NCBI GenBank assembly: GCA_030737835.1
Contig: JAUJYN010000055.1
Coordinates: 396,482-460,481 of the forward strand
Source: Acorus gramineus
Lineage: Eukaryota; Streptophyta; Magnoliopsida; Acorales; Acoraceae
Length of the DNA stretch: 64,000 bases
Direction: 5' to 3'
Shown here piece after piece: positions 4,032 to 59,676 of the stretch (its first letter is position 1; each line of letters begins with the position of its first letter). Both the position numbers and the translations under genes were made by a program. The notes under the pieces are model-generated. The model ran no database searches and was not told the DNA's origin. It saw only the letters and a program-made list of their open reading frames with translations.

Positions 4032-4134
4032 CCATTCTTGGGCTGAGAAGAGGCTTGGTGGTGGTGGTCTTGGTGGTGGCGATTTGGTGCACGAAGAGCA
4101 CCCGAGTTCCCTCCCTTTCCTTTCCTCTCCTTGG

Positions 4135-5685: not shown

Positions 5686-6076
5686 TTATCTCTGAGTCGG
5701 ATCTGAAGGAGGAGCTCCCTGAGGCACATCAGCAATAGCGGAGCAGCGTCACGTTCTGCGAGTGAGAGGCCATCAGCATCCCCTTTTGGTTGGATGTATT
5801 GTTATCCGTGCTTGGGCACATACTTGTATTTGGATGTCATTGTATATATATTGGCTCTCACAGGACAGTTGATTATGTAACGGGTCTGCAATATGTCTTT
5901 GAATTACAGACCCACTTGTTTGAGCTTCCGCTATTTGTATATATTGTGTCAGCCACCTTATTGTCTGTATTGTCATCTTGATGTTGTTTAGAGTATATTA
6001 TTGATCTCCTGTATAGACAGGTGATATCATATATACCATTGCCACGTCTCGGGGACGGCCGCCCTGGGGCGTGACA

Positions 6077-17200: not shown

Positions 17201-17805
17201 TCAGTCCCAATAGCCTATGTCACCCATTGATGGGTGAGGGTGAGGGTGTGGTGGTTCGGCGAAGTACGAACCACTGGATTATGTTGTTATGTCTTGGAGA
17301 TTGGATAAATAATGGAATTGTGGTAAATATTGTCTGTGATGCATGGGTTGTGCCGTTCACTGAGCGTGTGGCTCACCCCTCGCATATGTTTTTCCCCAGT
17401 GGTCACTGAGCTGGAGCCGGAGCAGCAGTTGGAGCCGTCCGAGGGATTCCTTCAGTAGCGGAGCAGCGGCACGTTCCGCGAGTGCCAGAGGCTATCAGCA
17501 TCCCTTTTCTTGGCTGTATGTATTTTATTTCCGTGCTTGGCACGCGTCTGTATATATTCAGTTGTTGCTATGTATATTGGCTCTCACAGGACGTATGATT
17601 ATGTATCGAGTCTGTAATATGTTTTGATTACAGACTCAGTTTTTTAGCTTCCGCTATATTGTGTATATATTATGTCAGCCTTGTTTTATCTATGTTGTCA
17701 TTTTTATCTGTGGTTTAGAGTATATGTACTTGACCTCATGTGTAGGCTTCTGATATCATATATACCCTTGCCGCGTCCCGGGGACGGCCGCCCTGGGTCG
17801 TGAGA
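14248..17805 (+). repeat. Solo family I LTR, inserted in LTR F
   Basis: The 3558-bp sequence starts TGTTATATATGTGTCAC and ends GGGTCGTGAGA, a changed GTGACA. No internal region is present. It contains a TATA motif (14512), a donor (GT at 14836), a GC-rich block (about 14980-15990), a mini-exon (16123-16158), two copies of the GGCCTTGCGAGG module (about 16472 and 16651), and a CAG at 17399. The flanks (ATATA left, AATAT right) are not identical, so the duplication is imperfect or one border has changed. Confidence 0.85.
14512..14518 (+). promoter_or_regulatory. TATA box of family I LTR
   Basis: TATATAA lies about 265 bp into the LTR, between the U3 and the CT-rich leader. Equivalent boxes occur at 19006 and 21541 and, on the minus strand, near 36260. 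It probably sets the start of the genomic RNA about 30 bp downstream. Confidence 0.6.
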
Positions 17806-21275: not shown

Positions 21276-24200
21276 TGTTATATATGTGTCACTTTTAGCC
21301 TGCTGGTAACCGTTGGAGCGTTCTGGCAGTTTTTCATTTTTTTTTCGGTTTTCGATCGGAACCGCTAATTTTTGGACTATTAGCTATCGTCCTGAGTTAG
21401 AGAACTCCGATTGGAAATCTAACTGCATATTTGGTGTCCTGGTGCCATTTTAGGCCTCTCACGAAAATTTCATCGATTTCGGCAACGTTTCCGAAATTTC
21501 GTAGTTCCGGGGCGTATACGGGTATTTTAAGTGATTCGTCTATATAAATGAAATCTAAAAATCTGATGACACTATTCATCATCCCTACCAAAGTGCTCCC
21601 TCTCTCCCTTTCTCCATTTTTCTTCCATTTGAGCCCCTTAGAGTCCTCAAACCCAAAAACCTAAAGCATAGAAAGTGTAGATCGGGTGCTTTCAAATCTA
21701 CACCCCGGTGCTTTCAAATCCGGATTCCGACGAGTTTTGCCTCTTCTCCCCCCCTCTTTTCTTCCCTGATTTGGGCCATTTTGGAGGCCAAGAGAGATCC
21801 GGGCGTTGGAAGCCTTTTGGGAGAGGTTTCGGTGCGCGGAGAGCAACCGGACTTCCCTTCCTCCCCTTGGTAAGCCTCTTTTTCCTCTCTTTTCTTGTAT
21901 AGATGTATGTTAGGAGGTGGGTATGAGGATGGGAGGCGGTCGGCGACGGTGGGTGGTGGTCGGAGGCCTTGGGGTGGTCGGAGGTGGGTGGTAGAGGAGC
22001 TCGGGCTGGTAGGCTGGCAGTCCCGGGCAGCAGGCAGCACAGGCAGCGCTCAGGCAGGCGCAGCAGGCATGCAGCGGCAGGGCGCACGCGCGCGTGCGCG
22101 CGGACGTGCGCTCGGGTTGGCGCTCGGCGTGTTGGGTGCTGGGCGTACGGGGGGCGAAGGCGTGCTGGGCAGGAGGTGCTCGGGCATCAGGCGGGCAGTG
22201 CCAGGCGTGCAGGCGAGCGGTGCTCGGGCCACTCGGCGATGCGCGCAGGCAGGCAGCGCGGGCAGCAGCGCGAGCAGGCTGGTAGGCTCGCTGGGCCCGT
22301 GCTGCCAGGCGCGCTGGACGAGTGCTGCGCGGGCGTGCGCGTGGACGCTGGGTGAGGGTCCCGGGTGCTGGGCGCTGAGGGCTGGGAGCTGGTCGCGGGT
22401 GCTGAGCGCTGGGCACCGTAGGGGAGCATGCGCGCGGGGCGCTGGGTAGAGGCACGGGCGTGCACGCGGGTAGAGGCTGGTGGTGCGCGCGGGACGGGGC
22501 TGGTGGTGCGTGCGGGGTGCGCGCGGGGCGAGGCGCTGGGCGCGTGGGGCGTGCATTCTGCTCGCGTGGTGCGCGCGGGGCGTGCGGGGTGCGCGCGGGC
22601 TGCTGCGGCGGGGCGCAGTGGGCGCGCGGCGCACCGGGTGGCTCGGCTGCGGGTCCAGGCGTGCGGGCAGGGGCCCGGCGGTGCGCGGGCTGAGGCGCGG
22701 CGGCGCGTCCGGGGGGGGTGGCCGTGCGGGTGGTTGCCGTGGGTTCGGGTGTCGGGTGCTCGGGATAGCGTGCGTACGGGTCGTATGTACGTTTGCCCGA
22801 GTGTAGTTCTTTTGGTGTATTTTGATGTATTTGTGTATTTAACTCACCGTATAAATGTCTGTCTTGCAGATCTTGACGGGCGGTCGCGCGACGACCCGGT
22901 TTCTGGTGAGTGGGACAATCCAACCCAGTAGAGAGGCGTTATACGCATTTGGGCGTATACCGACCTCTCCTGGGGCACCATGGATTTATATTAACCTGTT
23001 GTAAAGTGTATTTCATGCGAGCATGATTTAAATGTAGAATGCATGCTACCCTAGACTTTGCATGTTAGGGACTTGCAACCTTAGGATATGTGTATGAGCC
23101 ATGCATCATGTCCCCCAGTTCTCATGCTAGGAAGCCTTGGCCTATGCATGTGTCCTACTAGTTTATTTATTAAATTAAATGCTAGTGTGTGTTAAATGCA
23201 TGCCTTAAGTAATATTATAGGGAGGGGCCTTGCGAGGTCAACATTGAGACCCGGGTTAGGGTACTCCGTGTTCCTTGTTTGGTTGTCGGGATGTCCTGTA
23301 TCGGGACCTCATGCTGCCCTCCCAAGATTCTTGTCCCAATAATATTATATCTCGAGTTGGTGATTAATGATTTACTCATTGTATGATTATTAGCATAATT
23401 AGTGAATATTATAGGGGAGGGGCCTCGCGAGGACAGCGGTGAGACCCGGGCTAGGGTACTCCGTGTTCCTTGTTTGGTTGTCGGGGTGTCCTATATCGGG
23501 AACTCACGCTGCCCTCCCAAGTTTCTTTCCCCCAATGATATTCCAACCTTGCTATTATTGTACATGTTCCCCGCATCTTGGTTATGCGCCCTGGAGGAAT
23601 TCTGAAGAATTCATGACATTAGAATTGTAGAGATGCGTTGTCGGCGGATCCGAGTGGATCATATGCGTATGGATAGGCTGTTCTGTCCCCTTCGTTGGAT
23701 CCGGTAGAGGCTGCCCCAGCGTTAGAAAGGCCGTCCCTTCCAAGGGTTCCCATCAGTAGGCGCCTCCCGATATTTGTGACGGACTGTGCTGAAGTTGTGG
23801 GTGAGGGCTCCCATCAGTAGGCGCCTCCCGATATTTGTGACGGACTGTGCTGAAGTTGTGGGTGATAGCCAGCGGCCTACGGAGTGGAGGAGAGACTATC
23901 GGTGGACCAAGGGTGACCAACAGCCTAGTCAGTCCCAAAATCCTATGTCACCCATTGAAGGGTGAGGGTGAGGGTGTAGTGGGTTGGCGATGAGCGACCC
24001 ACTGGTGTTGTGATTGGATGAATATCAGTCCCAAAATCCTATGTCACCCGTTGTAGGGTGAGGGTGAGGGTGTAGTGGGTTGGCGATTAAGCGACCCACT
24101 GGTTTGAGTATTTGTTACCATTTTGTGGTTGTTAATAAGAGATTGTGGATTATTAAGATCTGAATTGTGGTCAATATTGTCTGTGATGCATGGGTTGTGC

Positions 24201-24648
24201 TGTTCACTGAGCGTGTGGCTCACCCCTCGCATATGTTTTTCCCCAGTTGCCACTGAGCTGGAGCCGGAGCAGCAGGTGGAGCTTTCCGAGGGATTCCTTC
24301 AGTAGCGGAGCAGCGCTACGTTCCGCGAGTGCCAGAGGCTATCAGCATCCCTTCTTGACTGTATGTATTTTATTTCCGTGCTTGAGCACGCGTTTGTATA
24401 TATACTCAGTTGTATTTGTGTATATTGGCTCTCACAGGACAGATGATTGTGTATCGAGTCTGTAGTATGTTTATTTACAGATTCAGTCTTTTGCTTCCGC
24501 ATTTGGTGTATATATCATGTCAGCCTCTTTGTTTGTCTGTGTGTCATTCTGGTTGCTTGTGTATGATATATTGTTGACCTCCTGTGTAGATTCTGATATT
24601 TTATATACACTTGCCGCGTCCCGGGGACGGCCGCCCTGGGGCGTGACA
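21276..24648 (+). repeat. Second LTR in the 5' region of element A, probably chimeric
   Basis: This 3373-bp LTR runs from TGTTATATATG to GCGTGACA and is followed by the primer site. Its first half, including the GC-rich block, differs from the LTRs at 18743 and 27522. Its last several hundred bp closely match the 3' LTR tail, for example CAGATTCAGTCTTTTGCTTC. It has a donor (GT at 21870), a mini-exon (22870-22905), two GGCCTTGCGAGG modules and a local duplication near 23750-23860. Recombination between a nested LTR and the host LTR would explain this. Confidence 0.85.
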
Positions 24649-27521: not shown

Positions 27522-30500
27522 TGTTATATATGTGTCACTTTTAACCTGCTGGTAACCGTTGGAGCGTTCTGGTAGTTTTTCATTTTTTCGGTCGGAACCG
27601 CTAATTTTTGGACTGTTAGCTATCGTCCTGAGTTAGAGGACTCCGATTGGAAATCTAACTGCATATTTGGTGTCCTGGTGCCATTTTAGGCCTCTCACGA
27701 AAATTTCATCGATTTCCAGCAACGTTTCTGGAATTTCGCAGTTCCGGGGCGTATCCGGGTATTTTAAGTGACTTGCTTTATAAGTGAAAGCTAAAATTAG
27801 ATTGACACTATTCATCATCCCTACCAATTTCATTTTCTCTCTCCCCTCTCTCTTTTTCTTCCATTTGAGCCCCTTAGAGCCCTCAAACCCAAAAACCTAA
27901 AGCATAGAAAGTGTAGATCGGGTCCCGATCTACACCCCGGTGCTTTCAAATCCCGATTCCGGCCTACCTAGCCCTTCCATCTTCCCTCTCTTCTCCTCAG
28001 ATCCGAGCCATTTCGGAGGTGGGAGTAGATCCGGCGTTGGAGGCCTTTGGGGAAAGGTTTCGGTGCGCGGAGAGCAACCGATCACCTCTTCCTCCCCTTG
28101 GTAAGCTCTTTTTCCTCTTCTTTTTGGCTTAGATGTATGTTAGCAAGGGGGGTTTTGTGTTTGGGTGGTGGTCGGCGGCTGTGGGAGGCTGTCGGAGATG
28201 GTTGGGGGCGGTCGGAGGCCGTCGGAGGTCGGTGGGGTGGTGGTGGAGGTGCTCGGGCATGGGGGTTGCAGTCCCGGGCAGGGAGGCTAGCTGCCCTGGG
28301 TAGGCTGGGAGCAGGCGCACCAGTTTACCGGGCGCGCGAGCGCGTGCGCGTGGGCGCGCGCCCGGGCGTGCGCTCAGGGGGTGCAGGGGGAGGCATGCGG
28401 GTAGGATGGCTGGGCTGTGCGCGCTGGCAGGCCTGGCTGGCAGGCTGGGCGCGCAGGCGTGCAGGGCACGCGGTGCTCGAGCATCAGGCGGGCAGTGGCA
28501 GGCGTGCAGGCGAGCGGTGCTCGGGCCACTCGGCGATGCGCGCAGGCAGGCAGCGCAGGCAGCAGCGCGGGCCGACTGGCAGGCGCGCTGGGCGCGTGCT
28601 GCCAGGCGCGCGCGTCTGCGCTGGGTGAGGGTCCCGGGTGCTGGGCGCTGAGCTTCGGGCGCTGGGTCACGGATACCGGGTGCTGGGCGTGGGTGCTGAG
28701 CGCTGGGCGCTGGGGCGCTGGGCACTGCAGAGGAGTATGCGCGCGGGGCGCTGGGCTGAGGCGCAGGCGTGCGCGCGGTGAGGACAGAGGCGTGCGCGCG
28801 GGTAGAGGCTGGTGGTGCGCGCGGAGTGCGCGGGGGACGGAGCTGGTGGTGCGCGCGGGGTGCGCGAGGGGCGAGGCGCTGGGCACGCGGGGCGTGCGAT
28901 GTGCTCGCGTGGTGCGCGCGGGGGCGTGCGGGGTGCTCGCACGGGCTGCTGCGGCGGGGCGCAGTGGGCGCGCGGTGCACCGGGTGGCTCGGCTGCATGT
29001 CCAGGCGGGCGGGCAGGGGCCCGACGGTGCGCCTGGGTGCGCGGGCTGAGGCGCGGCGGCGCATCCGAGGGCGGTTGGCCGTGCGGATGGTTGCCGGGGG
29101 TGCGGGAGTGTGTCGGAGTGCTCGGGCTAGCGTGCGTACGGGTCGTATGTACGTTTGCCCGAGTGTTGGGTATTTATTTGTGTAGCTTGGTATATTTTGT
29201 AGTGTTTTTGGGTTTTACTCACCAAGTTACTACCCTGTCTTGCAGATCTTGACGGACGGTCGCGCGACGACCCGGTTTCTGGTGAGTGGGACAATCCAAC
29301 CCAGTAGTGAGGCGTTATACGCATTTGGGCTTATACCGACCTCTCCTGGGGCACCATGGATTTATATTAACCCGTTGTAAAGTGTATTCCATGCGAGCAT
29401 GATTTAAAATGTAGAATGCATGCTACCCTAGACTTTGCATGTTAGGGACTTTCACCCTTAGGATGTGTAAGAGCCATGCATCATGTCCCCCTGTTCTCAT
29501 GCTAGGAAGCCTTGGCCTATGCATGTGTCCTACTAGTTTATTTATTAAATTAAATGCTAGTATTGCATGCTTTAGATAATATTATAGGGAGGGGCCTTGC
29601 GAGGTCAACATTGAGACCCGGGTTAGGGTACTCCGTGTTCCTTGTTTGGTTGTCGGGATGTCCTGTATCGGGACCTCATGCTGCCCTCCCAAGGTTCTTG
29701 TCCCAATAATATTATATCTCTAGTTGATAATTAATGAATTACCCCTTGTATGATCATTAGCATCTTAGTGAATATTATAGGGGAGGGGCCTCGCGAGGAC
29801 AGCGGTGAGACCCGGGCTAGGGTACTCCATGTTCCTTGTTTGGTTGTCGGGGTGTCCTATATCGGGAACTCACGCTGCCCTCCCAAGTTTCTTTCCCCAA
29901 TGATATTCCAACCTTGCTATTATTGTATATGTTCCCCGCATCTTGGTTATGCGCCCTGGAGGAATTCTGAAGAATTCATGACATTAGAGTTGTAGAGATG
30001 TGTTGTCGGTGGATCCGAGTGGATCATATGCGTATGGATAGGCTGTTCTATTTCCCTTCGTTGGATCCGTGTAGAGACTGCCCCAGCGTGATAAGGCCGT
30101 CCCTTCCGAGGGCTCCCATCAGTAGGCGCCTCCCGATCTCTGTGATGGACTGTGCTGAAGTTATGGGTGAAGGCCAAACGGCCTACGGAGTGGAGGAGAG
30201 ACTATCGGTGGACCAAGGGTGACCAACAGCCTAGTCAGTCCCAAAATCCTATGTCACCCGTGGTAGGGTGAGGGTGAGGGTGTAGTGGGTTGGCGATGAG
30301 CGACCCACTGGATTGTGATTGGATGATTATTAGTCCCAATATCCTGCGTCACCTGTTGAGGGGTGAGGGTGAGGGTGTGGTGGGTCGTCGATGAGCGACT
30401 CCCTGGATTGTGTTGTTTCCTGCCACTTGGAGGCTGGATAAATAATTGAATTGTGGTCAATATTGTCTGTGATGCATGGGTTGTGCCGTTCACTGAGCGT

Positions 30501-30937
30501 GTGGCTCACCCCTCGCATATGTTTTTTTTCCCAGTTGCCACTGAGCCTGAGCTGGAGCCGGAGCAGCAGGTGGAGCCGTCCGAGGGATTCCTTCAGTAGC
30601 GGAGCAGTGCTACGTTCCGCGAGTGCCAGAGACTATCAGCATCCCTTCTTGGTTGTATATATTTTATTTCCGTGCTTGGCACGCGTTTGTATATATTCAG
30701 TTGTATTTGTGTATATTGGCTCTCACAGGACAGATGATTGAGTATCGAGTCTGTAGTATGTTTATTTACAGATTCAGTCTTTTGCTTCTGCATTTGGTGT
30801 ATATATCATGTCAGCCCCTTTGTTGTCTGTGTGTCATTCTGGTTGCTTGTGTATGATATGTTATTGACCACTGTGTAGATTCTGATATTTTATATACATT
30901 TGCCGCGTCCCGGGGACGGCCGCCCTGGGGCGTGACA
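27522..30937 (+). repeat. 3' LTR of element A
   Basis: The 3416-bp LTR ends GCGTGACA, followed by the GTAAC duplication. It includes the 21-bp palindrome (27913-27933), a donor (GT at 28101), a GC-rich block (about 28290-29140), a mini-exon (29246-29281), two GGCCTTGCGAGG modules (about 29590 and 29785) and G-rich tracts near 30265 and 30360. Confidence 0.9.
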
Positions 30938-33463: not shown

Positions 33464-36400
33464 TGTCACGCCCCAGGGCGGCCGTCCCCGGGACGCGGCA
33501 AGTGTATATATGATATCAGTAAACAGGAGTTCAATAATATACTCACACAACAGCTAAAATGACAACACAGATAAAAGCAGGGATGACATGATATATACAC
33601 CAAATGCGGAAGCTAAAAGACTGAATCTGTAATCAAAACATACTACAGACTCGATACATAATCATATGTCCTGTGAGAGCCAACATGTCCATATACACAC
33701 AAATACAATCCATACATAATCCAAACTTGGTGACCAAGCACATAAATATATACATACAACAAAGAGAAGGATGCTGATGGCCTCAAAACTCGAGGGACGT
33801 GGCGCTACTCTGCTACTGGTGTAGTCGCTCGGGAAGCTCCTCCTTCAAGTCCTCCTCAGTGATCACTGAAAAAGATTTTATGCGAGGGGTGAGCCACACG
33901 CTCAGTGAATAGCACAACCCATGCATACAGTTTATATTAACCACAATTTATAGCAAAAAGCCTCAAAGTGGCATAATCAATCACAAGTCCGGTGGTTCGC
34001 TACATCGCCGAACCACCACCACACCCTCACCCTCACCCTCACCCCTCAATAGGTGACAAAGGGTATTGGGACTTAATGGGCTGATAATCATCCATACACA
34101 ATCCTGTGGGTCGCCGCATCGCCGGCCCACCATACCCTCACCCTCACCCCTCAATAGGTGACATAGGCTCTTGGGACTAACTAGGCTGTTGGTCACCCTT
34201 GGTCCACCGATAGTCTCTCCCCACTCCGTAGGTCGTTTGGCCACTCCCACATTCAGCACAGTCCTTCTACCAAATCAGGAGGTGCCTACTGATGGGAGCC
34301 CCTGCACGGGACAACCTTTCTAACGCTGAGGTAGTCTCTACACGGATCCAACGAAGGGAACAGAACAGCCTATCCATCGCATATGATCCACTCGGATCCG
34401 CTGACAGCACATCTCTACAACTCTAATGTCTTGAATTCTTTCAAAATTCCTCCAGCGCGCATAACCAAGATGCGGGGAAATAAATAAGACAAAAATGAGG
34501 AAAAGAGACCTTGGGAGGGCAACCTGAGGTCCCGATGTAGGACATCCCGCCAACCAAACAAAGAACACGGAGTACCCTAACCCGGGTCTCAATGTTAACC
34601 TCGCAAGGCCCCCTTATATTCCCCAAAGCATGCTAACAATATTACAAGTTTGCATTTAAGTAAATAAATCAAACTAATAGGACGCATGCATAGGTCAGGG
34701 CTTTCCTAGCATGATAACGAGGTGACAGGATGCACGGCTCATGCACATATCCTAAGGGTGCAAGTCCCTAACATACAAGTCTAGGGTGGCATGCATTCTA
34801 CACACACATCATGCTTACATGCTTTACAATACAACAGTTAATACTAACTATGTGCCCCAGGGGAGGACGGTACACGCCCAAAGCATGTAACGCCTCCCAA
34901 ACTGGGTTGGGTTGTCCCACTCACCGGAAGTCGGGTCGACGCGCGACCGTCCGTCGAGATCTGCAAGACAGGGTATCAATTGGTGAGTAAAATCCTCAAA
35001 TACCTCAAAATACAAGAAATACACAAATAAATACCCAAAATCCCAAAATCAAACACCCAATACTCGGGCAAACGTGCATACGACCCGCACGCACGCACGC
35101 TAGCCCGAGCACCCCGGTAACCACCCGCACCCCCGGCAGCCACCCGCACGGCCACCCGACCGCCTGGGTGCTCTGCCGCGCCTCAGCCCGCGCACCCAGC
35201 GCACCGCCGGGCCCTGCCCGCCGCCTGGACACGCCGCCGAGCCTCCCGGGTGCACCGCGCGCCCTTTGCGCCCCAGCGCAGCCGCCCGCGCACACCCCGC
35301 ACGCCTTGCGCTGGCCCGCGAGCACCCCGCACGCCCCGCGCGCACCGCCTCGCCGCGCCCCGCGCGCACCACTGCTGCCTCGCCGCGCCCCGCGCGCACC
35401 ACTGCTGCCTCGTCGCACCCCGTGCGCACCACCGCTGCCTCGCCGCGCGCCGCGCGCACCCCGCGCGCACCTCCCCTGCCTCGCCACGCGCGCACTCCGT
35501 GCGCACAGCTCTCCGCACCAGTCGCTCGAGCAGCTCCTCGCACCAGCCGCTCGGCCAGCTCCTCACACCAGCCGCTCGACCAGCACCTCGCACCAGCCGG
35601 TCGACCAGCACCTCGCACCAGCCGCTCGATCAGCAACCCCAGCACACCCGCGCACAGCGCCCAGCACGCGCGCCCTGCTGGCCTCCAGCTCCCCCCGAGC
35701 GCACGCCCGCGCGCACACGCCCGCGCGCGCCCAGCCTGCTGCGCTGCCTGTGCTGCTGCCTGTGCTGCCTACTGCCCGAAACAGAACCCCCCCATGCCCG
35801 AGCACCTCCACCACCCATCCAACGGCCTCCGACCACCCCCAACCACCTCCGACAGCCTCCCACAGCCGCCGACCACCACCCAAACACAAAACCCCCCTCC
35901 TAACATGCATCTAAGCCAAAAAGAAGAGGAAAAAGAGCATACCAAGGGGAGGAAGAGGTGTCCGGTTGCTCTCCGCGCACCGAAACGCTCCCCCAACGGT
36001 CTCTACCACCAAGACCTACCCCCACCTCCGATTTGGCTCGGATCTGAGGAGAAGAGAGGGCGGATGGGAGGGCTAGGTTGGCCGGAATCGGGATTTGAAA
36101 GCACCGGGGTGTAGATCGGGACCCGATCTACACTTTCTATGCTTTAGGTTTTTGGGTTTGAGGGCTCTAAGGGGCTCAAATGGAAGAAAAGGAGAGAGGG
36201 GAGAGAGAGAAAGCTTTGGTAGGGATGATGAATAGTGACAACTAAATATTAGATTTCATTTATATAGACAAATCACTTAAAGTACCCGGATACGCCCCGG
36301 AACTGTGAAATTTCAAAAACGTTACCGGAATTCGATGAAATTTTTATGAGTGGCTTAGAATGGCACCACGACACATAATATGCAGTTAGATTTTCAACCG

Positions 36401-36531
36401 GAGTCCTCAAACACAGGACGATAGCTAACAGTCCAAAATTTTGCGGTTCCGATCGAAAAACGAAAAAACTCAAAAACTGCCAAAATGCTCCAATGGTTAC
36501 CAGCAAGCCAAAAAGTGACACATATATAACA
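33464..36531 (-). repeat. Solo family I LTR with GATTA target duplication
   Basis: The 3068-bp LTR lies between GATTA at 33459-33463 and GATTA at 36532-36536, with no internal sequence. On the minus strand it has a TATA (near 36260), the 21-bp palindrome (36111-36131), a donor (GTATGC; intron from 35942), a GC-rich block (about 35100-35760), a mini-exon (34960-34925) and a single GGCCTTGCGAGG module (about 34618-34510). Confidence 0.93.
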
Positions 36532-37286: not shown

Positions 37287-38681
37287 TGTTAGGCCTGTGT
37301 CATTTGGAGGCATATATTTTTTCGATCGGAGTCGCTAAAATTTTAATTTTTAGCTACCTGCAGGATTTGGAGTACTCTGATTGAAAATCTGTCTGCATGA
37401 TTGTTCTCCTGGTATTGGCATTGGCCTACCTATAAATTCGCGTCGCATTCTGACATCTTTGTAGAAGTTATGCATTCCGATTGGTATTCAGATTTAATTT
37501 TGTTAATATTGAAGATGAAGAGGTTTAAATATGATTTTATCATGAGAAGTTCAGTTTTGAGTTAGCTTTCATACAAAAGTGTAATTGGATCAACTGGATT
37601 CATGTAGTAAAAGTTATGGGTATTTTTCCAAGTATACCCCGGGGATGAGAAAATCCTGGCAGCAGCCCTGTTTGATGTTTAGCTCACATTTTGAAATAGC
37701 TGGAGGGGTTATTTAATCTGAGCATAAACATGAAAGTTGTAGATAATCTTCTTGGCTTTCCAGTGGATTTTGAATTGTGCAATTCGGAGCTATATTGAGG
37801 AAGTTATGGCTGTTCTAGTGAAGCATGTACAGAATTTCGGGTCATGGACGATTTTTGTCCTTTGAACCCCACTTTGGCTATATAATGTCCTCCCCCCCAA
37901 ATGTCTCCTCTCTCACTCTCTTTGGTCCAGCCCTCTTGAGTGTGTTTGGTAGAGTTTTAGAAGGGGAAGATGAGGAAGAAGTGCTTGGAAGAGCAAAGAA
38001 GAGAAGGTGTGTGCCATTGTTGTTGTCTCTTCCCTCTCCTCCTTCTATTGCTCCCCCCTAATGTTATCCATGGATCCCCCCTCCCCTCTGGTTCAGCAAG
38101 AAGAAGAGGAATGAAGGCTGAAGTGGTGGTAGTGGTGGTGGTGGTTGAGGTGGTCATGGGCGTGCTTGCAAGCTCCCACACCTCCCCCTTCCCTTTCACC
38201 TTCTCTTGGTAAGCTTTCCCCTCTCTTTTTTTCTTCTGATTTTTCAGCTCATTGGGTGTGTTGGGAGGTGGTGCATGCTAAGTGTTTGTGTTTTGGTTTG
38301 TGTGTGCTTGGTTGCTTGGGTGTAGGGGTGTCGACGTGCCCGTGTGTCTACTGCCTTGTGTGTGCTGCCTGTGCCCAGCATGCTCTGTCTGTTGCCTTGC
38401 CAGCACTAGAACTCATGCCCAGCGGCTGTGCCCAGCATGCCCTGCCAGCACCTGCGTCTGTGCCCAGCGCATCCTGCGGAGTGCCCTGCGTCTGTGCCCA
38501 GCGAGCCCTGCGGCGTGCCCTGCGCTGTGCCCAGCGCACCCTGCGTCTGTGCTCAGCAATCTCTGCGGCGTGCCCTGCGTCTGTGCCCGGCGTGCCCTGC
38601 GCCTGTGCTCAGTGCGTCCTGCGATGTTCCCTATGACTGTGCCCAGCGCGCCTTGCCCTGCCTGTGCATCCCGAGTGCTGC
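37287..38681 (+). repeat. 5' LTR of element D, piece 1 (family III U3)
   Basis: It begins TGTTAGGCCTGTGTCATTTGG, with a TATA (TATATAA at 37879) and a CTTG|GTAAGC donor-like site at 38209. The start of the C/G-rich CTGTGCCCAGC repeats follows. It stops at GCTGC (38677-38681), where a solo LTR is inserted. Confidence 0.88.
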
Positions 38682-41250
38682 TGTCACGCCCCATGGCGGC
38701 CATCCCCGAGACGCGGCAATGGCATATATAATATCAGCAGTCTATGCAGGAGATCAATAACATACTCTAAACAACATAAAAAAAATGGCAACACAGACAA
38801 CAAAGAGGCTGACATAATATATACAAATAGCGGAAGCTCAAACGACTGAGTCTGTAATTCAAAGACATATTACAGACCCGATACATAATCAACTGTCCTG
38901 TGAGAGCCAATATATACAATGACATCCAAATACACAAACGTGTGCCCAAGCACAGAATGCAATACATATAATAAAAAGGGGATGCTGATGGCCTCTCACT
39001 CGCAGAACGTGACGCTGCTCCGCTATTGCTGATGTGCCTCGGGGAGCTCCTCCTTCAGATCCGACTCAGATATCACTGGAGAAAAAAATATGCGAGGGGT
39101 GAGCATCACCCTCAGTGAATAGCACAACCCATGCATCACAATTCATATTAACCTCAATTAATTATAGCCCCTAACACGGGAACAACTACACATTCTAGTG
39201 GGTCGTCTCATCGCCAACCCACTTCCCCTCCCCTCACCCTCACCCTTTCCGAGGGGTGACATGGGCCTCTTGGGGCATACTAGACCGCTTTCCACCCCTG
39301 GCCCCACCGGGTAGCCTCTCCCACCCTCATAGCCTCCACCTGGTATACTCCCACGATCAGCACAGTCCGACGCATCGGAGGCACCTACAGATGGGAGCCC
39401 TCTGTCAGGCCAGCTAACGCCGGGGAGTTCCTACCTCGGATCCCAACCATAAGGAGAAGACAGCCTACTCACGCGGATATGATCCTCTTGGATCCGTCGA
39501 CACCGATTGTAACTCTACTAATGTCATGAATTCTCAAGAATTCCTCCAGGGCGCATAACTAAGATGCGGGGAGACATATTATAACAACAAGGTTATAATA
39601 TTCTCTAAGGCATGCTCACATTTGATTTAATTAAATTAAACTAGGTGGGAACATGCACAGGTCGGGGCAAGGTGTCTAGGCATGCATAGGCCTCTAACAT
39701 GATGTAAGGGTGCATATCCCTAGCATACAAATCTAAGGTGGCATGGATACATCATAATATTCATGCAAAGCATAGTTTACATTTAATACTAGCTAATATG
39801 CAACTATGGTGCCCCAGGGGAGGGCAATGCACGCCTACGTGCATCGAACGCCTCCCTACTAGGTTGGATTGTCCCACTCACCAACACCCGGGTCGTCGCG
39901 TGACCGCCCGTCAAGATCTGCAAGACATGGGTAATCAAAATGGTGAGTAATTACACAAATACATAAGAAATACGCTAGAAATACCCAACACTCGGACAAG
40001 CATGCATACGGGCCCGCACGCACGCTAGTCCGAGTGCCCCGACATCCTCCCGCACCCACGGGCAGCCATGCGCACGGCCACCCGCACGCGCACGCACGGG
40101 TGCGCACGCACGCACGCACGCCCGTGCCCCGGGCGCACTGCCGCGCCCCAGCCCGCGCGCCCAGACACGCTGCCGCGCGTCCAGCCCTGCGTCTACCCGC
40201 GCATACTGCGCGTCTGCGCAGCACCCCGCGCGCACCCCGCGCACTGCGCCCCCGTGCAGCACCACCCGCGCACGCCCGCGCGCCTGCGTGTACGCGCGCG
40301 CGCCCGCCAGCGCATCCGCCTGCGCGCGCAGACTGGTGCGCACGCGCGCGGATGACCCTGCACACGCACCCGAGCCCTTCCCACCACCTCCCTCAGCCCT
40401 CCCACACCCCTAATACACATGCATGCCATGCATACTCCATAACACACCCTAACATGCATCTAAACCTAGCTAGGGGAGGAGAAAAGCTTACCCAAAAGGA
40501 GGAAGAACCAACGGAGGAACTTGGGTGCCCTTCGCGCACCGAATCACCACCACCAAAGACACCACCACCAAGCCTCTTCTCAGCCCAAGAATGGATGAAA
40601 ACAGAGGAGAAAGGGAGCTAAGAGAGGAGGTAGAGAAAGGGGGAAACCAAAAATAAAACCATGGGAAGGTAGATCAAGACCTCACCTTCCTTTTTCCCTT
40701 CTTTGGCTTTTCTTTTTTCCACTCTAACTAGATCAAATGGGGGATTTAAAGAGAGGGAATGTGAGATTTGTGTTTGAGTGAGAGAGAGAATAAGATTAAT
40801 AATGAAGAGGGGGTGCACGCCCACTTAAGGGGCCACACACACACACACACACTCACACACACACTCACACTTAGAAAAATTTAGGTTTTGGTGAACTTTG
40901 ACTTGGGTCAACCTAACCACACTAACAAACAAAAATATTTGACCAAGTCAAGGGTCAAACTTGACTTGGTCAAGTCTCCCAATGACTTTTCGCTTGGTCA
41001 AAACCCGAATACGATTCAGAACTGTGAAATTCTGAAACGTTACCGGAATTCGATGAAATTTTCGTGAGTGGCTTGAAATGGCACCAGGACACATAATGTG
41101 CAGTTAGATTTTCAATCGGAGTTCTCAAGCTCATAATGATAGCCAAAAGTTTGAAATTTTAGCGGTTCCGATCGAAAAAAGAAAAAAACTGAAAAACTGC
41201 CAGAATGCTCCAATGGTGACCAGAAGGCTAAAAGTGACACATATATAACA
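38682..41250 (-). repeat. Solo family I LTR with GCTGC target duplication
   Basis: The 2569-bp LTR lies between GCTGC at 38677-38681 and 41251-41255. It is of the same type as 3380-6076, with a W-box-like cluster (about 40900-41000), a (CA)n tract (about 40840), a donor TTGG|GTAAGC (intron from 40491), a GC-rich block (about 40000-40350) and a mini-exon (39917-39882). It keeps both intervals that the LTR at 57730 lacks, though the CAG of the first reads CAT here. Confidence 0.93.
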
Positions 41251-41742: not shown

Positions 41743-44358
41743 TGTTATGCCTATGTCATTTGGAGCAGTCTGATTGAAAATTTGGCTACATAATTTTTCT
41801 CCTCGAAGTTATGTATTTCCAATTTGGTATTTGGATTTGATTTTGTTAAAATCCAAGATGAAGAGGTTTAAATATGATTTTATTATGAGATGCTCAGTTT
41901 CGAGTTAGCTTTCATACAAAAGTGGAATTAGATCAACTGGATTCCTGTAGTAAAAGTTATGGGTATTTTTCCAAGTATACCCCGGGGATGAAAAATTCTG
42001 GCAGCAGCCCTGTTCAATGTTTAGCTCACATTTCGGAATAGCTGGAGGGATTATTGGATCGTGGCATAAACATGAAAGTTGTAGATAATCTTCTTGGCTT
42101 TCCAACGGACTTTGAATTGTGCAATTCGGAGCTATATTGAGGAAGTTATGGCTGTTATAGTGAAGCATGCTCAGAATTTCTAGTCAAGGATAAATAGGTC
42201 ATTTCTACCCCTCCTTTAGATATTTATGTGCCAAAATATCTCTCCCTCTCTCTCTCCCACTCACACGTCTACACTTTCTTGGCTCTCTCTTCTCTCTTCC
42301 CCCCCCCCCCCCCCAAGTGTTTGTATTATCTCCTCAAAGAGAAGAGAAGGAGAAGGTGCAAGTGCAAGTCTAGGGTTGTGTAAGTGTTGTTGTTGTTGTT
42401 GATCTCCTCTCGCTCAAGTTCTCTTTCATGAACTTTTCCCCCCTGATTTGTAGCCAAAGGAGGGCTGGGGAAGGCTGAGGAGGTGGTGGTTGAGGTGGTC
42501 GCGGGTGCGTCGAGGGCCCCCGAACCTCCCCCTTTCATTTCCCCTCCCAAGGTGAGCCTTTCCCCTTCTTTTCTTGGTTTTTCTTAGGGATGGTTGGGGA
42601 GCTCATGCATGTTGGGTAGATGTGTTAGAATGTGTGTGAGGGGTTGGGGAGGGTTAAAAAGGGGTTAGGGAAGAGTGGGAGCGCGTTGGGGGTTGTCTGC
42701 GCGCGTGCGTAGGCAGGCGCTCGAGCAGGAGGGTGCTGGCAGGCGCAGGCGAGCGCGCAGACGCGCGCGGGCGCCTGCGCGCGGAGTGGGCGCGTGAGTG
42801 CCCGCGGGCACTGGCGCGAGCGGGGGTGTGGGCGAGTGCGCATGGGCGCGAGCGGGGGTGCGGGCGAGTGCGCACGGGCGCGCGCGAGCGTGCGCGCTCT
42901 GGGGCATGCGTGGGGCTGCCCAGGGTCTCGGGTAGGTGCAGGGGCACCCGGGCATGTGTGCGTACGCGCGTGCTCGCATGCGTACGAGTCCGTATGCGTG
43001 CATGTCTAAGTCTTTGGTATTTCTAGTAAATTTCATGTATATTTGTGTAGTTTACTCACCATATTGAATGCCCATGTCTTGCAGATCTTGGCGAACGGTC
43101 ACGCAACGACCCGGGTTGCGGTGAGTGGGTCAATCCAACCCAGTAGGGAGGCGTTCGATGCACGTAGGCGTGCATTGCCCTCCCCTGGGGCACCATAATT
43201 GCATATTAACTTGTGTCAATGAAAAACTATGTTAATGCATGTTTTACTATGATGTAACCATGTCATATTAGACATTGTATGCTAGGGATATACATCCATG
43301 TATCATGTATAGAGACTCATACATGTCTAGACACCATGTCCCATGCTTGAAAAGCCTTGATCTATGCATGTTTCCCATTTAGTTTAATTTAATTAAATCA
43401 AAATGAGATTATATTGGTATAAGCATGCCTTAGAAAATATTATAACTTTGTTATTATAATATATGTTTCCCCGCATCTCAGTTATGCGCCCTGGAGGAAT
43501 TCTTGAGAATTCATGACATTAGTAGTGTTAGAAATCGTTGTCGACGGATCCAAGAGGATCGTATCCGTGTGAGTAGGCTGTTTTCTCCCCTTCGTTGGAT
43601 CCGAGTAGGGACTCCCCGGCGTTGGGAAAGCTGTCCTGACAGAGGGCTCCCATCTGTAGGTACCACCGATGCGTTCGGAGGGTACTGATCGTGGGAGTAT
43701 ACCAGGTAGAGGCTACGCGAGGGAGAGGCTACTGGTGGACCAAGGGTGGAGAGCAGTCTAGTCTGTCCCAAAAGGCCCATGTCACCCCTTAAAGGGTGAG
43801 GGTGAGGGTGGGGTGGGTCGGCGATGTTACGACCCACTAGCTTGTACAGTTACTCCCGTTTAGGGACTTTAATTATTATAAGGTTAATATGAGTTGTGTT
43901 GCATAGATTGTGCCATTCACTGAGCGTGTGGCTCACCCCTCGCATATTCTTTTCCTCCAGTTGTTACTGAGTCGGATCTGAAGGAGGAGCTCCCCGAGGC
44001 ATCACATCAGTAGCGGAGCAGCGTTCACGTTTTGGGTTCTACGAGTGAGAGGCCATCAGCATCCCCTTCTTTGCTTGTATGTATTGTTATCCGTGCTTGG
44101 GCACAACACTTGTATATGGATGTCTTTGTTTATATTGGCTCTCACAGGACAGTTGATTATGTATTTGGTCTGTAATATGTCTTTGAATTACAACTCAGTC
44201 GTTTAAGCTTCCGCTATATGTATATATATTATGTCAGCTACATTATTGATTGTGTTGTCATTTTCGATGTTGTTTAGAGTCTTTTATTGATCTCCTGTAT
44301 GGACTGCTGATATTATATATTTGCCACGTATCGGGGACGGCCGCCCTGGGGCGTGACA
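41743..44358 (+). repeat. 5' LTR of element E (family II U3)
   Basis: It begins TGTTATGCCTATGTCATTTGG and ends GCGTGACA. U3 differs from family I and resembles family III. It has a C run (about 42300), a donor AAG|GTGAGC (GT at 42552), a GC-rich block (about 42690-42990), a mini-exon (43085-43120), a G-tract cluster (43794-43817) and a CAG at 43960. The downstream half closely resembles family I. Confidence 0.93.
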
Positions 44359-44363
44359 AAAGT

Positions 44364-44380
44364 TGGTATCAGAGCCTGGT
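44364..44380 (+). other. Primer-binding site of element E (tRNA-iMet)
   Basis: TGGTATCAGAGCCTGGT lies five bases after the 5' LTR, identical to the site at 24654. Confidence 0.93.
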
Positions 44381-44471
44381 CCTGTCAGAGCCAATTGTTT
44401 TTCTTAGAGATGAGTCCTAGGATTTCTATATGAGTATTCTGATCCTAGTGTCTGTTTCTTAGGTTGCTGAT

Positions 44472-49384: not shown

Positions 49385-51970
49385 TGTTGTGCCTGTGTCA
49401 TTTGGAGCTCTCTGATTGAAAATTTGGCTACATAATTTTCTCCTCGAAGTTATCTATTTCCAATTTGGTATTTGGATTTGATTTTGTTAAAATCCAAGAT
49501 GAAGAGGTTTAAATATGATTTTATTATGAGATGCTCAGTTTCGAGTTAGCTTTCATACAAAAGTGGAATTAGATCAACTGGATTCCTGTAGTAAAAGTTA
49601 TGGGTATTTTTCCAAGTATACCCCGGGGATGAAAAATTCTGGCAGCAGCCCTGTTCAATGTTTAGCTCACATTTCAGAATAGCTGGAGGGATTATTTGAT
49701 CGTGGCATAAACATGAAAGTTGTAGATAATCTTCTTGGCTTTCCAACGGACTTTGAATTGTGCAATGCGGAGCTATATTGGGGAAGTGATGGCGGTTATA
49801 GTGAAGCATGCTCAGAATTTCTAGCCAACGATAAATAGGTCATTTCTACCCCTCCTTTAGATATTTATGTGCCAAAATATCTCTCCCTCTCTCTCCCACT
49901 CACACGTCTACACTTTCTTGGCTCTCTCTTCTCTCTTTCCCCCCCCCCCCCCCAAGTGTTTGTATTATCTCCTCAAAGAGAAGAGAAGGAGAAGGTGCAA
50001 GTGCAAGTCTAGGGTTGTGTAAGTGTTGTTGTTGTTGTTGATCTCCTCTCTTTCAAGTTATCTTTCATGAACTTTTCCTCCCTGATTTGCAGCCAATGGA
50101 GGGCTGAGGAGGGCTGAGGAGGTGGTGGTAGTGGTGGTGGTGGTTGAGATGGTCGCGGGTGCGTCGAGGGCCCCCGAACCTCCCCCTTTCATTTCCCCTC
50201 CCAAGGTGAGCCTTTCCCCTTCTTTTCTTGGTTTTTATGGCTTAGGGATGGTTGGGGAGGTCATCCATGTTGGGTAGATGTGTTAGAATGTGTGTGAGGG
50301 GTTGGGGAGGGTTAAAAAGGGGTTAGGGAAGAGTGGGTGCGCACTGGGGGCTGTCTGCTCGCGTGCGCGCGCAGGCGCGCGCGCAGGAGGGCGCTGGCAG
50401 GCGCAGGCGGGCGCGCGAGCTTGCGGGTGCGCGCGGGCGCTGGCTCGAGCGGTGGTGCGCGCGGGAACTGCGCGTGAGTGCGCGCGGGCGCGCGCGAGCG
50501 TGCGTGCGTTGGGGCATGCGTGGGGCTGCCCAGGGTCTCGGGTAGGTGCAGGGGCACCCGGGCATGCGTGCGTACCCACGTGCTCGCATGCGTGCGAGCT
50601 CGTATGCGTGCATGTCTAAGTCTTTGGTATTTCTAGTAAATTTCATGTATATTTGTGTAGTTTACTCACCATATTGAATGCCCATGTCTTGCAGATCTTG
50701 GCGAACGGTCACGCAACGACCCGGGTTGCGGTGAGTGGGTCAATCCAACCCAGTAGGGAGGCGTTCGATGCACGTAGGCGTGCATTGCCCTCCCCTGGGC
50801 ACCATAATTGCATATTAACTTGTGTCAATGAAAAACTATGTTAATGCATGTTTTACTATGATGTAACCATGCCATATTAGACATTGTATGCTAGGGATAT
50901 ACATCCATGTATCATGTATAGAGGCCCATACATTACTAGACACCATGTCCCATGCTTGAAAAGCCTTGATCTATGCATGTTTCCCATTTAGTTTAATTTA
51001 ATTAAATCAAAATGAGATTATGTTGGTATAAGCATGCCTTAGAAAATATTATTACCTTGTTATTATAATATATGTTTCCCCGCATCTCAGTTATGCGCCC
51101 TGGAGGAATTCTTGAGAATTCATGACATTAGTAGTGTTAGAAATCGTTGTCGACGGATCCAAGAGGATCGTATCCGTGTGAGTAGGCTGTTTTCTCCCCT
51201 TCGTTGGATCCGAGTAGGGACTCCCCGACGTTGGGAAAGCTGTCCTGACAGAGGGCTCCCATCTGTAGGTACCACCGATGCGTTCGGAGGGTACTGATCG
51301 TGGGAGTATACCAGGTAGAGGCTACGCGAGGGAGAGGCTACTGGTGGACCAAAGGTGGAGAGCAGTCTAGTCTGTCCCAAAAGGCCCATGTCACCCCTTA
51401 AAGGGTGAGGGTGAGGGTGGGGTGGGTCGGCGGTGTTACGACCCACTAGCTTGTACAGTTCCTCCCGTTTAGGGACTTTAATTATTATAAGGTTAATATG
51501 AGTTGTGTTGCATAGATTGTGCCATTCACTGAGCGTGTGACTCACCCCTCGCATATTCTTTTCCTCCAGTTGTTACTGAGTCGGATCTGAAGGAGGAGCT
51601 CCCCGAGGCATCACATCAGTAGCGGAGCAGCGTTCACGTTTTGGGTTCTGCGAGTGAGAGGCCATCAGCATCCCCTTCTTTGCTTGTATGTATTGTTATC
51701 CGTGCTTGGGCACAACACTTGTATATGGATGTCTTTGTTTATATTGGCTCTCACAGGACAGTTGATTATGTATTTTGGTCTGTAATATGTCTTTGAATTA
51801 CAGACTCAGTCGTTTAAGCTTCCGCTATATGTATATATATTATGTCAGCTACATTATTGATTGTGTTGTCATTTTCGATGTTGTGTAGAATCTTTTATTG
51901 ATCTCTTGTATAGACTGCTGATATTATATATATTTGTCATGTATCGGGGACGGTCGCCCTGGGCGTGACA
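49385..51970 (+). repeat. 3' LTR of element E
   Basis: The 2586-bp partner of the LTR at 41743 begins TGTTGTGCCTGTGTC and ends GGGCGTGACA. Donor GT is at 50206, mini-exon at 50695-50730. The two LTRs are nearly the same outside the GC-rich block (50340-50600), which differs noticeably, as expected for a CpG-rich stretch. Confidence 0.93.
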
Positions 51971-51975
51971 ATGAT

Positions 51976-56693: not shown

Positions 56694-57729
56694 TGTTAGG
56701 CCTGTGTCATTTGGAGGCATATATTTTTTCGATCGGGGTCGCTAAAATTTTGGTTTTTAGCTACCTGCAGGATTTGAAGAACTCTGATTGAAAATTTGTC
56801 TACATGATTGTTCTCCTGGTATTGGCATTGGCCTACCTGTAAATTCGCGTCGCATTCTGACATCTTTGTAGAAGTTATGCATTCCGATTGGTATTCGGAT
56901 TTAATTTTTTTAATATCAAAGATGAAGAGGTTTAAATATGATTTTATCATGAGATGCTCAATTTTGAGTTAGCTTTCATACAAAAGTGGAATTGGATCAA
57001 CTGGATTCATGTAGTAAAAGTTATGGGTATTTTTCCAAGTATACCCCGGGGATGAGAAAATCCTGGCAGCAGCCCTGTTTGATGTTTAGCTCACATTTTG
57101 AAATAGCTGGAGGGGTTATTTAATCTGAGCATAAACATGAAAGTTGTAGATAATCTTCTTGGCTTTCCAGTGGATTTTGAATTGTGCAATTCGGAGCTAT
57201 ATTGAGAAAGTTATGGCTGTTCTAGTGAAGCATGTACAGAATTTCAGGTCATGGATGATTTTTGTCCTTTGAATTCCACTTTGGCTATATAATGTCCTCC
57301 CCCCCAAATGTCTCCTCTCTCACTCTCTTTGGTCCAGCCCTCTTGAGTGTGTTTGGTAGAGTTTTAGAAGGGGAAGATGAGGAAGAAGTGCTTGGAAGAG
57401 CAAAGAAGAGAAGGTGTGTGCCATTGTTGTTGTCTCTTCCCTCTCCTCCTTCTATTGCTCCCCCCTAATGTTATCCATGGATCCCCCCTCCCCTCTGGTT
57501 CAGCAAGAAGAAGAGGAATGAAGGCTGAAGTGGTGGTAGTGGTGGTGGTGGTCGAGGTGGTCATGGGCGTGCTTGCGAGCTCCCACACCACCCCCTTCAC
57601 TTTCCCCTTCTCTTGATAAGCTTTCCCCACTTTTTTTTCTGGTTTTTCAGCTCATTGGGTGTGTTGAGAGGTGGTGCATGCTAAGTGTTTGTGTTTTGGT
57701 TTGTGTGTGCTTGGTTGCTTGGGTGTAGG
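56694..57729 (+). repeat. 3' LTR of element D, piece 1
   Basis: It starts TGTTAGGCCTGTGTCATTTG and closely follows 37287-38328 of the 5' LTR, including TATATAA near 57284. The donor-like site reads TTGATAAGC here instead of TTGGTAAGC. It is interrupted after GTAGG (57725-57729). Confidence 0.88.
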
Positions 57730-59671
57730 TGTTATATATGTGTCACTTTTAGCCTTCCGGGCACCTTTGGGACATTTCTGGCAGTTTTTCAACTTTTTCT
57801 TTTTTCGATCGGAACCGCTAAAATTTTAGACTTTTAGCTATCATCCTGAGCTTGAGAACTCCGATTGAAAATCTAACTGCACATTATGTGTCCTGGTGCC
57901 ATTTCAAACCACTCACGAAAATTTCATCGAATTCCGGTAACGTTTCAGAATTTGGCAGTTCTGAATCGTATCCGGGTTTTGACCAAGCGGAAAGTCATGG
58001 GGAGACTTGACCAAGTCAAAGATGACTTTGACCAAGTCAAGTTTGACCATTGACTTGGTCAATTGGTTTTGTTTGTTTGTGTGGTTGGGTTGACTCAAAG
58101 TCAAACACCAAAAACCCTAATTTTTCTAAGTGTGTGAGTGTGTGAGTGTGTGTGTGTGTGTGTGTGCAACCACTTGGACGTCCACTTCTTTCTCTTCTCT
58201 TCTCTTCTCTTCTTCATCTCTCTCACACACAAAAAGATCCATCTCTCCCTCTTGTTATTTTCTTCCATTAGAGCTAGTAGAAGAGGTTGAAATAGAAAGC
58301 CATTGAAGGGAAAAAGATAGCCATTTTAGGGCTGAGAGTGGGCTTGGTGGTGGCGATTCGGTGTGCAAAGGGCACCCGAGTTCCTCCCTTTGTTCTTCCT
58401 CTCTTTGGATCTTGACGGACGGTCACGCAACGACCCGGGTTTCGGTGAGTGGGACAATCCAACCCAGGGGGGAGGCGTTCGATGCACGTAGGGGTGCATT
58501 GCCCTCCCCTAGGGCACCATAATTGTCTATTAACATGTAGTAAATGTAAAGCTATGCATGCATGATTATTATGTTGTATCCATGCCACCTTAGACTTGTA
58601 TGCTAGGGATATGCACCCATATATCATGTATAGAGGCCTATGCATGCCTAGCCACCATGTCCCCTGATTGGAAAGCCCCGGACTATGCATGTTCCCATCT
58701 AGTTTAATCTAATTAAATCAAAATGAGAGCATATAGTTACAAGCATGCCTTAGAGAATATTATAACCTTGTTGTTATAATATATGTCTCCCCGCATCTTA
58801 GTTATGCGCCCTGGAGGAATTCTTGAGAATTCATGACATTATTTAGTGTTACAAATCGTTGTCGACGGATCCAAGAGGATCATATCCGCGAGAGTAGGCT
58901 GTCTTCTCCTTTTGGTTGGATCCGATGTAGGAACTCCCCGGCGTTGGCTGACCTGACAGAGGGCTCCCGTCCGTAGGTACCTCCGATGTGTCGGACAGTA
59001 CTGATAGTGGGAGTGGACTAGGTGGAGGCTACGAGGGTGGGAGAGGCTACCGGGTGGACCAGGGGTGGAGAGCGGTCTAGTATGCCCCAAGAGGCCCATG
59101 TCACCCCTAGTAAAGGGTGAGGGTGAGGGGGGGGAGGTGGGTTGGCGATGAAACGACCCATTAGAATGTGTGGTTGCTCCCGTGTTAGGGGCAGTAATTT
59201 ATATAAGGTTGATATGAATTGTGATGCATGGGTTGTGCTATTCACTGAGCGTGTGGCTCACCCCTCGCATATATTTTTCTCCAGTTATATCTGAGTCGGA
59301 TCTGAAGGAGGAGCTCCCCGAGACACCACAGCAGTAGCGGAGCAGCGTCACGTTCTGCGAGTGAGAGGCCATCAGCATCCCCTTTTGATTGTATGTATTG
59401 TTATCCGTGCTTGGGCACACGATTGTATTTGGATGTCATTGTATATATTGGCTCTCACAGGACAGTTGATTATGTATCGGTCTGTAATATGTCTTTGAAT
59501 TACAGACTCAGTCGTTTAAGCTTCCACTATTTGTATATATCATGTCAGCTACACTTTTGTCTGTGTTGTCATTTTTGATGTTGTTTAGAGTATTTTATTG
59601 ATCTCCTGTATATACTGCTGATATTATATATACCTGCCACGTCTCGGGGACAGCCGCCCTGAGGCGTGACA
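57730..59671 (+). repeat. Shortened solo family I LTR lacking two intron-like intervals, GTAGG duplication
   Basis: The 1942-bp LTR lies between GTAGG at 57725-57729 and 59672-59676. It is of the 3380-6076 type, with U3 W-box-like cluster and (GT)n tract. Compared with that LTR it lacks the 89-nt GTAGGG...TTTTCAG interval (joint at 58320/58321) and the whole GTAAGT...TTTCAG interval with the GC-rich block (joint at 58408/58409). Both joints fall at the intron-like borders. The mini-exon (58409-58444) is followed by the usual GTGAGTGGG sequence, which is retained. The best explanation is reverse transcription of a partly spliced element RNA. Confidence 0.9.
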
Positions 59672-59676
59672 GTAGG

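Follow-up and report, generated by a model that had tools for sequence, protein, structure and literature searches.

Putative introns in the long terminal repeats of Acorus gramineus Ty3/gypsy retrotransposons, and LTR copies that very probably descend from partly spliced RNA

The window, meaning the whole stretch of 64,000 nucleotides analysed here (contig C93:396482-460481, in a scanned genome of 398.6 Mb), is plant repeat DNA in which Ty3/gypsy elements, carrying domains of gag, protease, RT, RNase H and integrase, are nested in one another. RT, RNase H and then integrase follow one another in one frame, the order that marks Ty3/gypsy elements. In a profile scan of the window element, RVT_1, RT_RNaseH and Integrase_H2C2 scored above the cut-off and rve below its own, and the element protein aligns with Ty3 Gag-Pol 7q5b (E 9.6e-122). 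A C-terminal Chromo match is weak (E 3.4e-4; 20.9 bits, under the Pfam cut-off of 25.1), and we describe the group as chromovirus-like; on element structure, the Tekay/Del lineage may come into question. A tRNA PBS after the 5' LTR and a polypurine tract before the 3' LTR are both present, and the tract GGGGGGAAGAA precedes LTRs A, I and E. With limits set from termini, polypurine tract, PBS and self-comparison, ten LTRs of the window fall into two related families, I (A, S, C, D and E) and II (F to J); LTRs of a family III are present as well. The features are as follows, where 'intron' here and below means a putative intron predicted from the DNA:

3380..6076, + strand: LTR A, intron-bearing relative of S, a 3' LTR after a polypurine tract
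14248..17803, + strand: LTR F, family II, intron 2 present
18743..21263, + strand: LTR G, a truncated family II copy with intron 2
21276..24648, + strand: LTR H, family II, 5' LTR, intron 2 present
27522..30937, + strand: LTR I, family II, 3' LTR, intron 2 present
33464..36531, - strand: LTR J, family II, intron 2 present
about 37287-38681, 41251-41742 and 51971-53951: family III partner LTR without S
38682..41250, - strand: LTR C, intron-bearing, with a mutation to CAT at the intron 1 acceptor
41743..44358, + strand: LTR D, the 5' LTR of element D-E, with a mosaic U3 and with intron 2
44364..44379, + strand: PBS TGGTATCAGAGCCTGG of the D-E element, placed after the 5' LTR
49385..51970, + strand: LTR E, the 3' LTR of element D-E, with intron 2
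about 56694-57729 and 59672-62670: family III LTR, host of S
57730..59671, + strand: S, a solo LTR without introns 1 and 2 (compared with A, C and L044)

Some of these elements are composite. The D and E LTRs are seemingly mosaic, with a U3 that resembles the family III LTR at about 90% and an R-U5 like family I, the pattern expected from template switching. The partial LTR G directly precedes the complete element H-I (18743-30942), and as the left flank of G and the right flank of I are both GTAAC, the insertion seems to have been G-H-internal-I. Only about 2.9 kb separate LTRs H and I (24649-27521), and the single ORF scanned there matches gag, so that this element is perhaps non-autonomous; similarly short spacing between LTRs is found in some of the spliced pairs described below.

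Intron 2 is present in nine of the ten family I and II LTRs of the window, where it begins GTAAG, GTGAG or GTATG, ends CTTGCAG or CTTTCAG and varies in length from 489 to 1287 nt; exon 3, which follows it, is 36 nt long in all ten. A conserved ACTCACC stands upstream of the intron 2 acceptor and fits the consensus of a branch site. The GC content of intron 2 is 62-74%; typical plant introns are less GC-rich, and this atypical composition counts against a spliceosomal reading. In family II a TATATAA- or TTTATAA-type box lies shortly upstream of exon 1, which would place the introns in R-U5; the transcription start and the limits of R-U5 are predicted on this basis. The LTRs of a very abundant plant retrotransposon group appear to carry introns, which would be spliced in the RNA.

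S differs from this arrangement, and its parts and the corresponding introns of A are:

58185..58320, + strand: exon 1 in S, ending at joint 1; start predicted from a CT-rich stretch that in family II is located after the TATATAA-like box
58321..58408, + strand: exon 2 in S, flanked by both joints
58409..58444, + strand: exon 3 in S, 36 nt
3943..4031, + strand: intron 1 in LTR A (GTAGGG...TTTTCAG)
4135..4744, + strand: intron 2 in LTR A (GTAAGT...TTTCAG)

The first-pass annotation had claimed that S lacks these two intervals of A and that its joints, 58320/58321 and 58408/58409, fall on GT and AG borders. Both statements stood: the two intervals are the sole gaps above 63 bp between S and A, the joints lie where they had been placed, and the GT...AG borders are exact against L044, the closest to S among the intron-bearing loci that were fetched. 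All other gaps of at least 8 bp between S and A are repeat differences (simple repeats of 20 and 8 bp, a 15-bp tandem repeat in exon 2 and a 63-bp tandem duplication of A), and in a separate comparison with C the gaps of at least 8 bp besides the introns are likewise much shorter, 63 bp being the largest over A and C. Against A, the GT/AG fit at joint 1 holds only if two of the last bases of exon 1 have been substituted, and the aligner placed this gap as 88 bp, two bases off. The LTR L044, located on contig C1, carries the introns, has a PBS after it and is 95.5% identical to S over 1914 bases, with gaps of at least 12 bp at a 12-bp simple repeat, at the 15-bp exon 2 repeat and at two segments of 93 and 669 bp. 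The former (GATAG/GTAAGG...TTTTCAG/CCATTTT) gives an exact joint 1 and the latter (TTTGG/GTAAG...TCTTGCAG/ATCTTG) is intron 2. As exon 1 ends in GATAG in both S and L044, what looked like two substitutions at joint 1 in the comparison with A is a difference between subfamilies. Set against 15 loci, S showed one clean intron 2 gap in 12 and a disturbed gap in two of the other three.

The insertion of S is marked by three copies of one pentamer:

57725..57729, + strand: left target-site duplication GTAGG of S
59672..59676, + strand: right target-site duplication GTAGG of S
38322..38326, + strand: empty site, a single GTAGG in the family III partner LTR without S

The duplication that had been described around S is therefore found on both flanks and once at the empty site, and S, with its 5-bp duplication and its empty site, is an ordinary insertion. 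Contig C2 carries a 3.3-kb paralogue that comprises S together with its flanks (97.4% identity over 56703-60019, 98.1% for S itself), and a further fragment with the right flank of S occupies 13595-18340 on the minus strand, interrupted by LTR F; S was therefore duplicated after its insertion. The presence of S with family III flank elsewhere, at L002 and L014 (C2:31.52 Mb) and on the minus strand of the window at 13595-18340, means that S may have been carried along inside an LTR belonging to a different element or copied in a segmental duplication.

Copies with the same joint are found throughout the genome. The pattern of intron 2 acceptor plus exon 3 matches 11,704 sites with at most two mismatches (reversed control, 0), and the spliced-joint pattern matches 241 (28 exactly, 21 with one mismatch and 192 with two; control, 1). 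All 49 candidates with at most one mismatch were read, and exon 2 is joined to exon 3 in 48 of them, a count that covers this mismatch class and includes L004, whose joint is longer by three bases. Most of the 51 two-mismatch matches listed among the 192 read as mutated acceptors; L085, for the same reason, was rejected as a spliced copy. When up to 15 bp of slack either way was allowed between exon 2 and exon 3, in a search covering one exon 2 ending, all 17 joints found were exact, 15 being CTTG/ATC and two CTTGG/ATC, the two donor positions of the two families; scattered borders, which the first-pass annotation had named as the result that would speak against splicing, were thus not seen. 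Three further joints came from this search and a few more, with an altered exon 3, from others; a second slack pattern, for a rarer exon 2 ending, gave no matches. A 200-bp query from L022, with the joint between bases 100 and 101, gave 40 matches, of which 16 (L022 included) span the joint; of the remainder, 22 begin at base 100, one ends there and one begins at base 90, base 100 being a G common to intron and exon. Removal is exact at the splice sites except in L021 (intron 1) and in the subgroup L004, L041 and L042, where the joint of exons 2 and 3 contains an additional TTG or TAG, perhaps from an alternative splice site. Part of U3 is missing from L030.

These copies occupy many sites. 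The LTR start is visible in 29 of 30 loci with 1.5-kb flanks, as TGTTATATAT or a near variant; seven of the 29 follow a polypurine tract, and the left flanks of the other 22 represent 21 distinct sites, S and its C2 paralogue being the sole pair that agrees. A PBS or polypurine tract adjoins 10 of the 29. Target duplications of 5 bp directly at the LTR ends were read as GTAGG, GGTTT, GTCTA and TTATG, the last surrounding a complete element; L029, seen at both ends, has no target duplication. The expectation that other copies would lack exactly these intervals and carry different target duplications was thus confirmed, with 48 joints, 21 distinct sites and these four duplications.

In an unrooted tree of the region from U3 to exon 2 (58 rows, 35 spliced and 23 unspliced, with the intron 1 columns left out), the spliced state needs at least 13 changes, nine of which are forced by strong branches alone, and a single spliced clade is rejected (p 1.6e-39). 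The change count is a lower bound because the unspliced sample is small and was chosen by similarity or position, and recombination among LTRs may disturb it. The spliced label is also more clustered than in shuffles (4 of 500 as low), so that some spread by descent is likely. Among the best 40 matches of L011, 36 lie outside the spliced list and all 19 fetched from these keep GTAAGC; one listed match, also fetched, is spliced. A pairing of L024 with L025 was dropped, as L025 is nearer to L023 (97.0% versus 93.2%).

In the established retroviral scheme, R-U5 is copied from the 5' end of the RNA and enters both LTRs, so that a spliced 5' end would be expected in both. S is a solo LTR with its second LTR absent, and concordance was read from other elements. 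The same joint is present in both LTRs of four compared pairs: L033/L034 (C78, 98.7% alike), L011/L012 (C2, 98.0%), L043/L035 (C82, 96.8%) and L041/L042 (C3, 97.9%, with the odd TTG/TAG joint); a target duplication, TTATG, is confirmed for L033/L034 alone. Other spliced copies stand at similar element spacing on C55, C58, C59 and C65. No discordant pair, with one LTR spliced and one not, was seen among the few elements checked, and no partner LTR near L022 was found among the 40 matches scored.

Intron 1 serves as a natural control. In the half of the tree with GT...AG at intron 1, the 35 spliced rows include 11 exact losses, four keepers and L021, whose loss was imprecise, in contrast to the others, and left 12 nt of the intron (GTAAG+ATTTCAG); in the other half, which has no GT there and whose acceptors vary, some ending GAG, all 19 rows keep the segment. 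Without L021, 11 of the 15 rows in the GT...AG half have lost intron 1, versus 0 of 19 in the other (Fisher 4.8e-6), the type of copies without intron 1 being assigned by family and tree, not from the intron itself. Read by eye over the 48 joints, 13 copies lack intron 1, seven keep it, 26 are of the other type, and L021 and L078, the latter read over a shorter stretch that ends before intron 1, make up the rest, the acceptor side alone having been read for 10 (three keepers and seven of the 26 other-type copies); this wider count gives a Fisher value of 7.6e-7, or 5.4e-6 once near copies are collapsed. Loss of intron 1 alone was not found, as none of 64 matches runs from exon 1 through exon 2 and then stops. 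A comparison of intron 1 loss by intron 2 state (0 of 13 intron 2 keepers) was dropped as a biased sample, because 12 of the 13 had been fetched for a match breaking at intron 1.

A third candidate intron is retained throughout, and another splice-site-like module precedes gag:

58445..59284, + strand: candidate intron 3 (GTGAGT...TTTTTCTCCAG), kept in S
44438..44463, + strand: 3' splice-site-like module TCTGATCC...TTTCTTAG/G, directly before the gag ATG at 44472; use in splicing predicted

Families I and II both conserve GTGAGT at 58445 and the TTTTTCTCCAG that precedes 59285. In each of the 48 spliced copies read, exon 3 is followed by the donor region, which is mutated in L018 and L088. No genome-wide match was found to the joint of exons 3 and 4 that loss of intron 3 would leave; both motifs of this joint are present in 21 of 41 LTRs in hand, so that fewer than about six copies without intron 3 are likely. 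Hence 'partly spliced', as S had been described, is apt, since candidate intron 3 is never removed. TTCTTAG/G behind TTCTGATCC, right before the gag ATG, is found in nine of the 12 distinct internal regions shown, and the remaining three, of family III type, have TATCTTAG without the branch-like word. A joint of exon 3 to gag has no match in the DNA, 12 of 16 gag starts in hand carrying the motif, and this absence speaks neither for nor against splicing to the gag acceptor. Exact scans of viral and prokaryote contig collections gave no match to the exon 3 donor motif. When exon 3 (58409-58444) is joined to 59285 onward, one frame is open across the joint in all nine LTRs besides the truncated G and ends at a shared TAG (in S, LDGRSRNDPGFVISESDLKEELPETPQQ before the stop). 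The exons before this TAG hold almost no ATG (one in eight copies together); this shortage is weak (P 0.03-0.35 per copy), as is the codon-position signal of the joined frame (3/5/6).

The first-pass annotation had read S as a copy of spliced RNA, and this reading is supported by the exact joints, their recurrence on the tree and the involvement of both LTRs; the joints lie at many insertion sites, and loss of intron 1 depends on the family. We consider it very probable that reverse transcription of partly spliced RNA explains the loss of introns from these LTRs, and that S is such a copy. Spliceosomal introns would lie in R-U5, downstream of the transcription start. The normal template would be unspliced RNA, and nearly all new copies would keep their introns for this reason; occasionally an RNA without introns 1 and 2, or without intron 2 alone, would serve instead. 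Minus-strand strong-stop DNA would then copy the spliced R-U5, and the joint would be written into both new LTRs. S would have been copied from such a template and later reduced to a solo LTR. The intron 3 donor may splice past the PBS to the acceptor before the gag ATG, giving a product that could not prime reverse transcription; we propose that intron 3 is never lost because its spliced product would lack the PBS.

LTRs do undergo deletions, as the imprecise intron 1 of L021 and the incomplete U3 of L030 illustrate, and ordinary DNA deletions might have met GT/AG borders by chance. When deletions of the same lengths are placed at random in A, 0.8% for either length meet GT...AG borders, and fractions of 5.7e-5 and 2.4e-5 meet the stricter borders (GTRRG plus a pyrimidine-rich CAG end); moreover, the slack search had room for inexact joints and returned none, the losses recur across subfamilies and affect both LTRs of the elements compared, and the intron-1-like segment without a GT donor was lost in none of 19 rows, which together make chance deletion extremely improbable. 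The opposite polarity, with an ancestral intronless state and introns gained by other copies, draws on the fact that change counts on an unrooted tree give no direction. However, the homologous intron 2 ends (ACTCACC...TCTTGCAG) and exon 3 are common to families I and II, some 50 intronless copies are nested among the 11,704 acceptor-bearing sites, and recurrent loss is far more likely than recurrent gain at a single base, so that gain is just as hard to credit. Exact intron loss would also be expected if LINE-type or other host machinery had retrocopied the spliced LTR RNA; against this stand the 5-bp duplications at the LTR ends, the PBS or polypurine tract beside 10 of 29 loci and the LTR terminus at which 29 of 30 loci begin, since copies that include U3 upstream of the predicted start argue against a host retrocopy, and we regard this origin as highly improbable.

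A more substantial alternative, which we nevertheless judge unlikely, is that few splicing events occurred and the intronless state then spread through mobile intronless elements, template switching or gene conversion. Near-relative spliced copies do stand at different sites (L023/L024/L025; L019/L029) under a clustered label, mosaic LTRs such as D and E exist, and S has a 98.1% copy elsewhere. Nonetheless, spliced copies occur in both families, each with its own exon 2 sequences, the TTGG/ATC and CTTG/ATC joints match each family's own donor, and a minimum of 9 to 13 changes is needed with 23 intron-bearing rows sampled. Such spread alters the number of events, not the mechanism.

The LTR leader could further be a built-in RNA sorting device, in which the chain of introns in R-U5 marks the fate of the RNA, a tentative idea to which we give somewhat less than even credence. 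Fully spliced RNA (from the 58445 donor to the gag acceptor), without a PBS, would be for translation only, and unspliced RNA would be the genome; copies without introns 1 and 2 would be leaks of half-spliced RNA, and the genome, were this true, would be a direct count of sorting failures.

Deltaretroviruses also have a splice donor inside R, and in retroviruses with such a donor the partner acceptor lies outside the LTR and the spliced RNA is subgenomic. As in those retroviruses, here a splice signal lies within R and the spliced RNA would start with part of the LTR; in contrast to them, the LTR contains whole introns, and integrated copies inherit the loss of these. The splice donor of foamy viruses within R of the LTR is described in a section of PMC3694450. 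According to a passage in PMC12786077, plant LTR retrotransposons are generally without introns. BARE1 of barley, a plant LTR retrotransposon as here, differs in being Ty1/copia with its intron in gag; a portion of PMC3735527 describes this 104-nt intron and the pools of spliced (translated) and unspliced (packaged) RNA. Ogre and EVADE are likewise plant elements with introns, functional and facultative in the portions of PMC6317226 and PMC12786077 concerned, but theirs lie in the coding region and not in the LTR. In TyH3 and ONSEN/SAKE, engineered reporters treated in part of PMC12786077, intron loss shows passage through RNA, whereas here the loss is natural, in the LTR and repeated across the genome. 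Up to 10% of packaged HIV-1 and RSV RNA may be spliced according to a section of PMC5086612, so that spliced RNA can enter particles, as would be needed here; that section does not present this as a heritable LTR state in the genome. Full-text literature searches found no description of inherited intron loss from LTRs, and the text of PMC3059260 contains neither 'intron' nor 'splic'. The parts of the mechanism are thus known, and their combination in LTRs at genome scale appears to be new within the literature searched.

For annotation, these results carry a warning that an intronless LTR does not necessarily represent a family of its own and that differences in LTR length can be splicing. How retrotransposons separate genomic RNA from messenger RNA is a relevant question in plants, and because the introns lie inside the LTR, each new copy would permanently document how its template had been spliced. 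Spliced templates account for roughly 0.4% of surviving copies and at most about 2% (48 joints read, and 241 matches at most, versus 11,704). The leak rate, the order of splicing and its conditions may therefore be readable from genome sequence alone. Dozens of copies look like DNA made from spliced RNA, and the genome would in this way record which RNAs were copied back.
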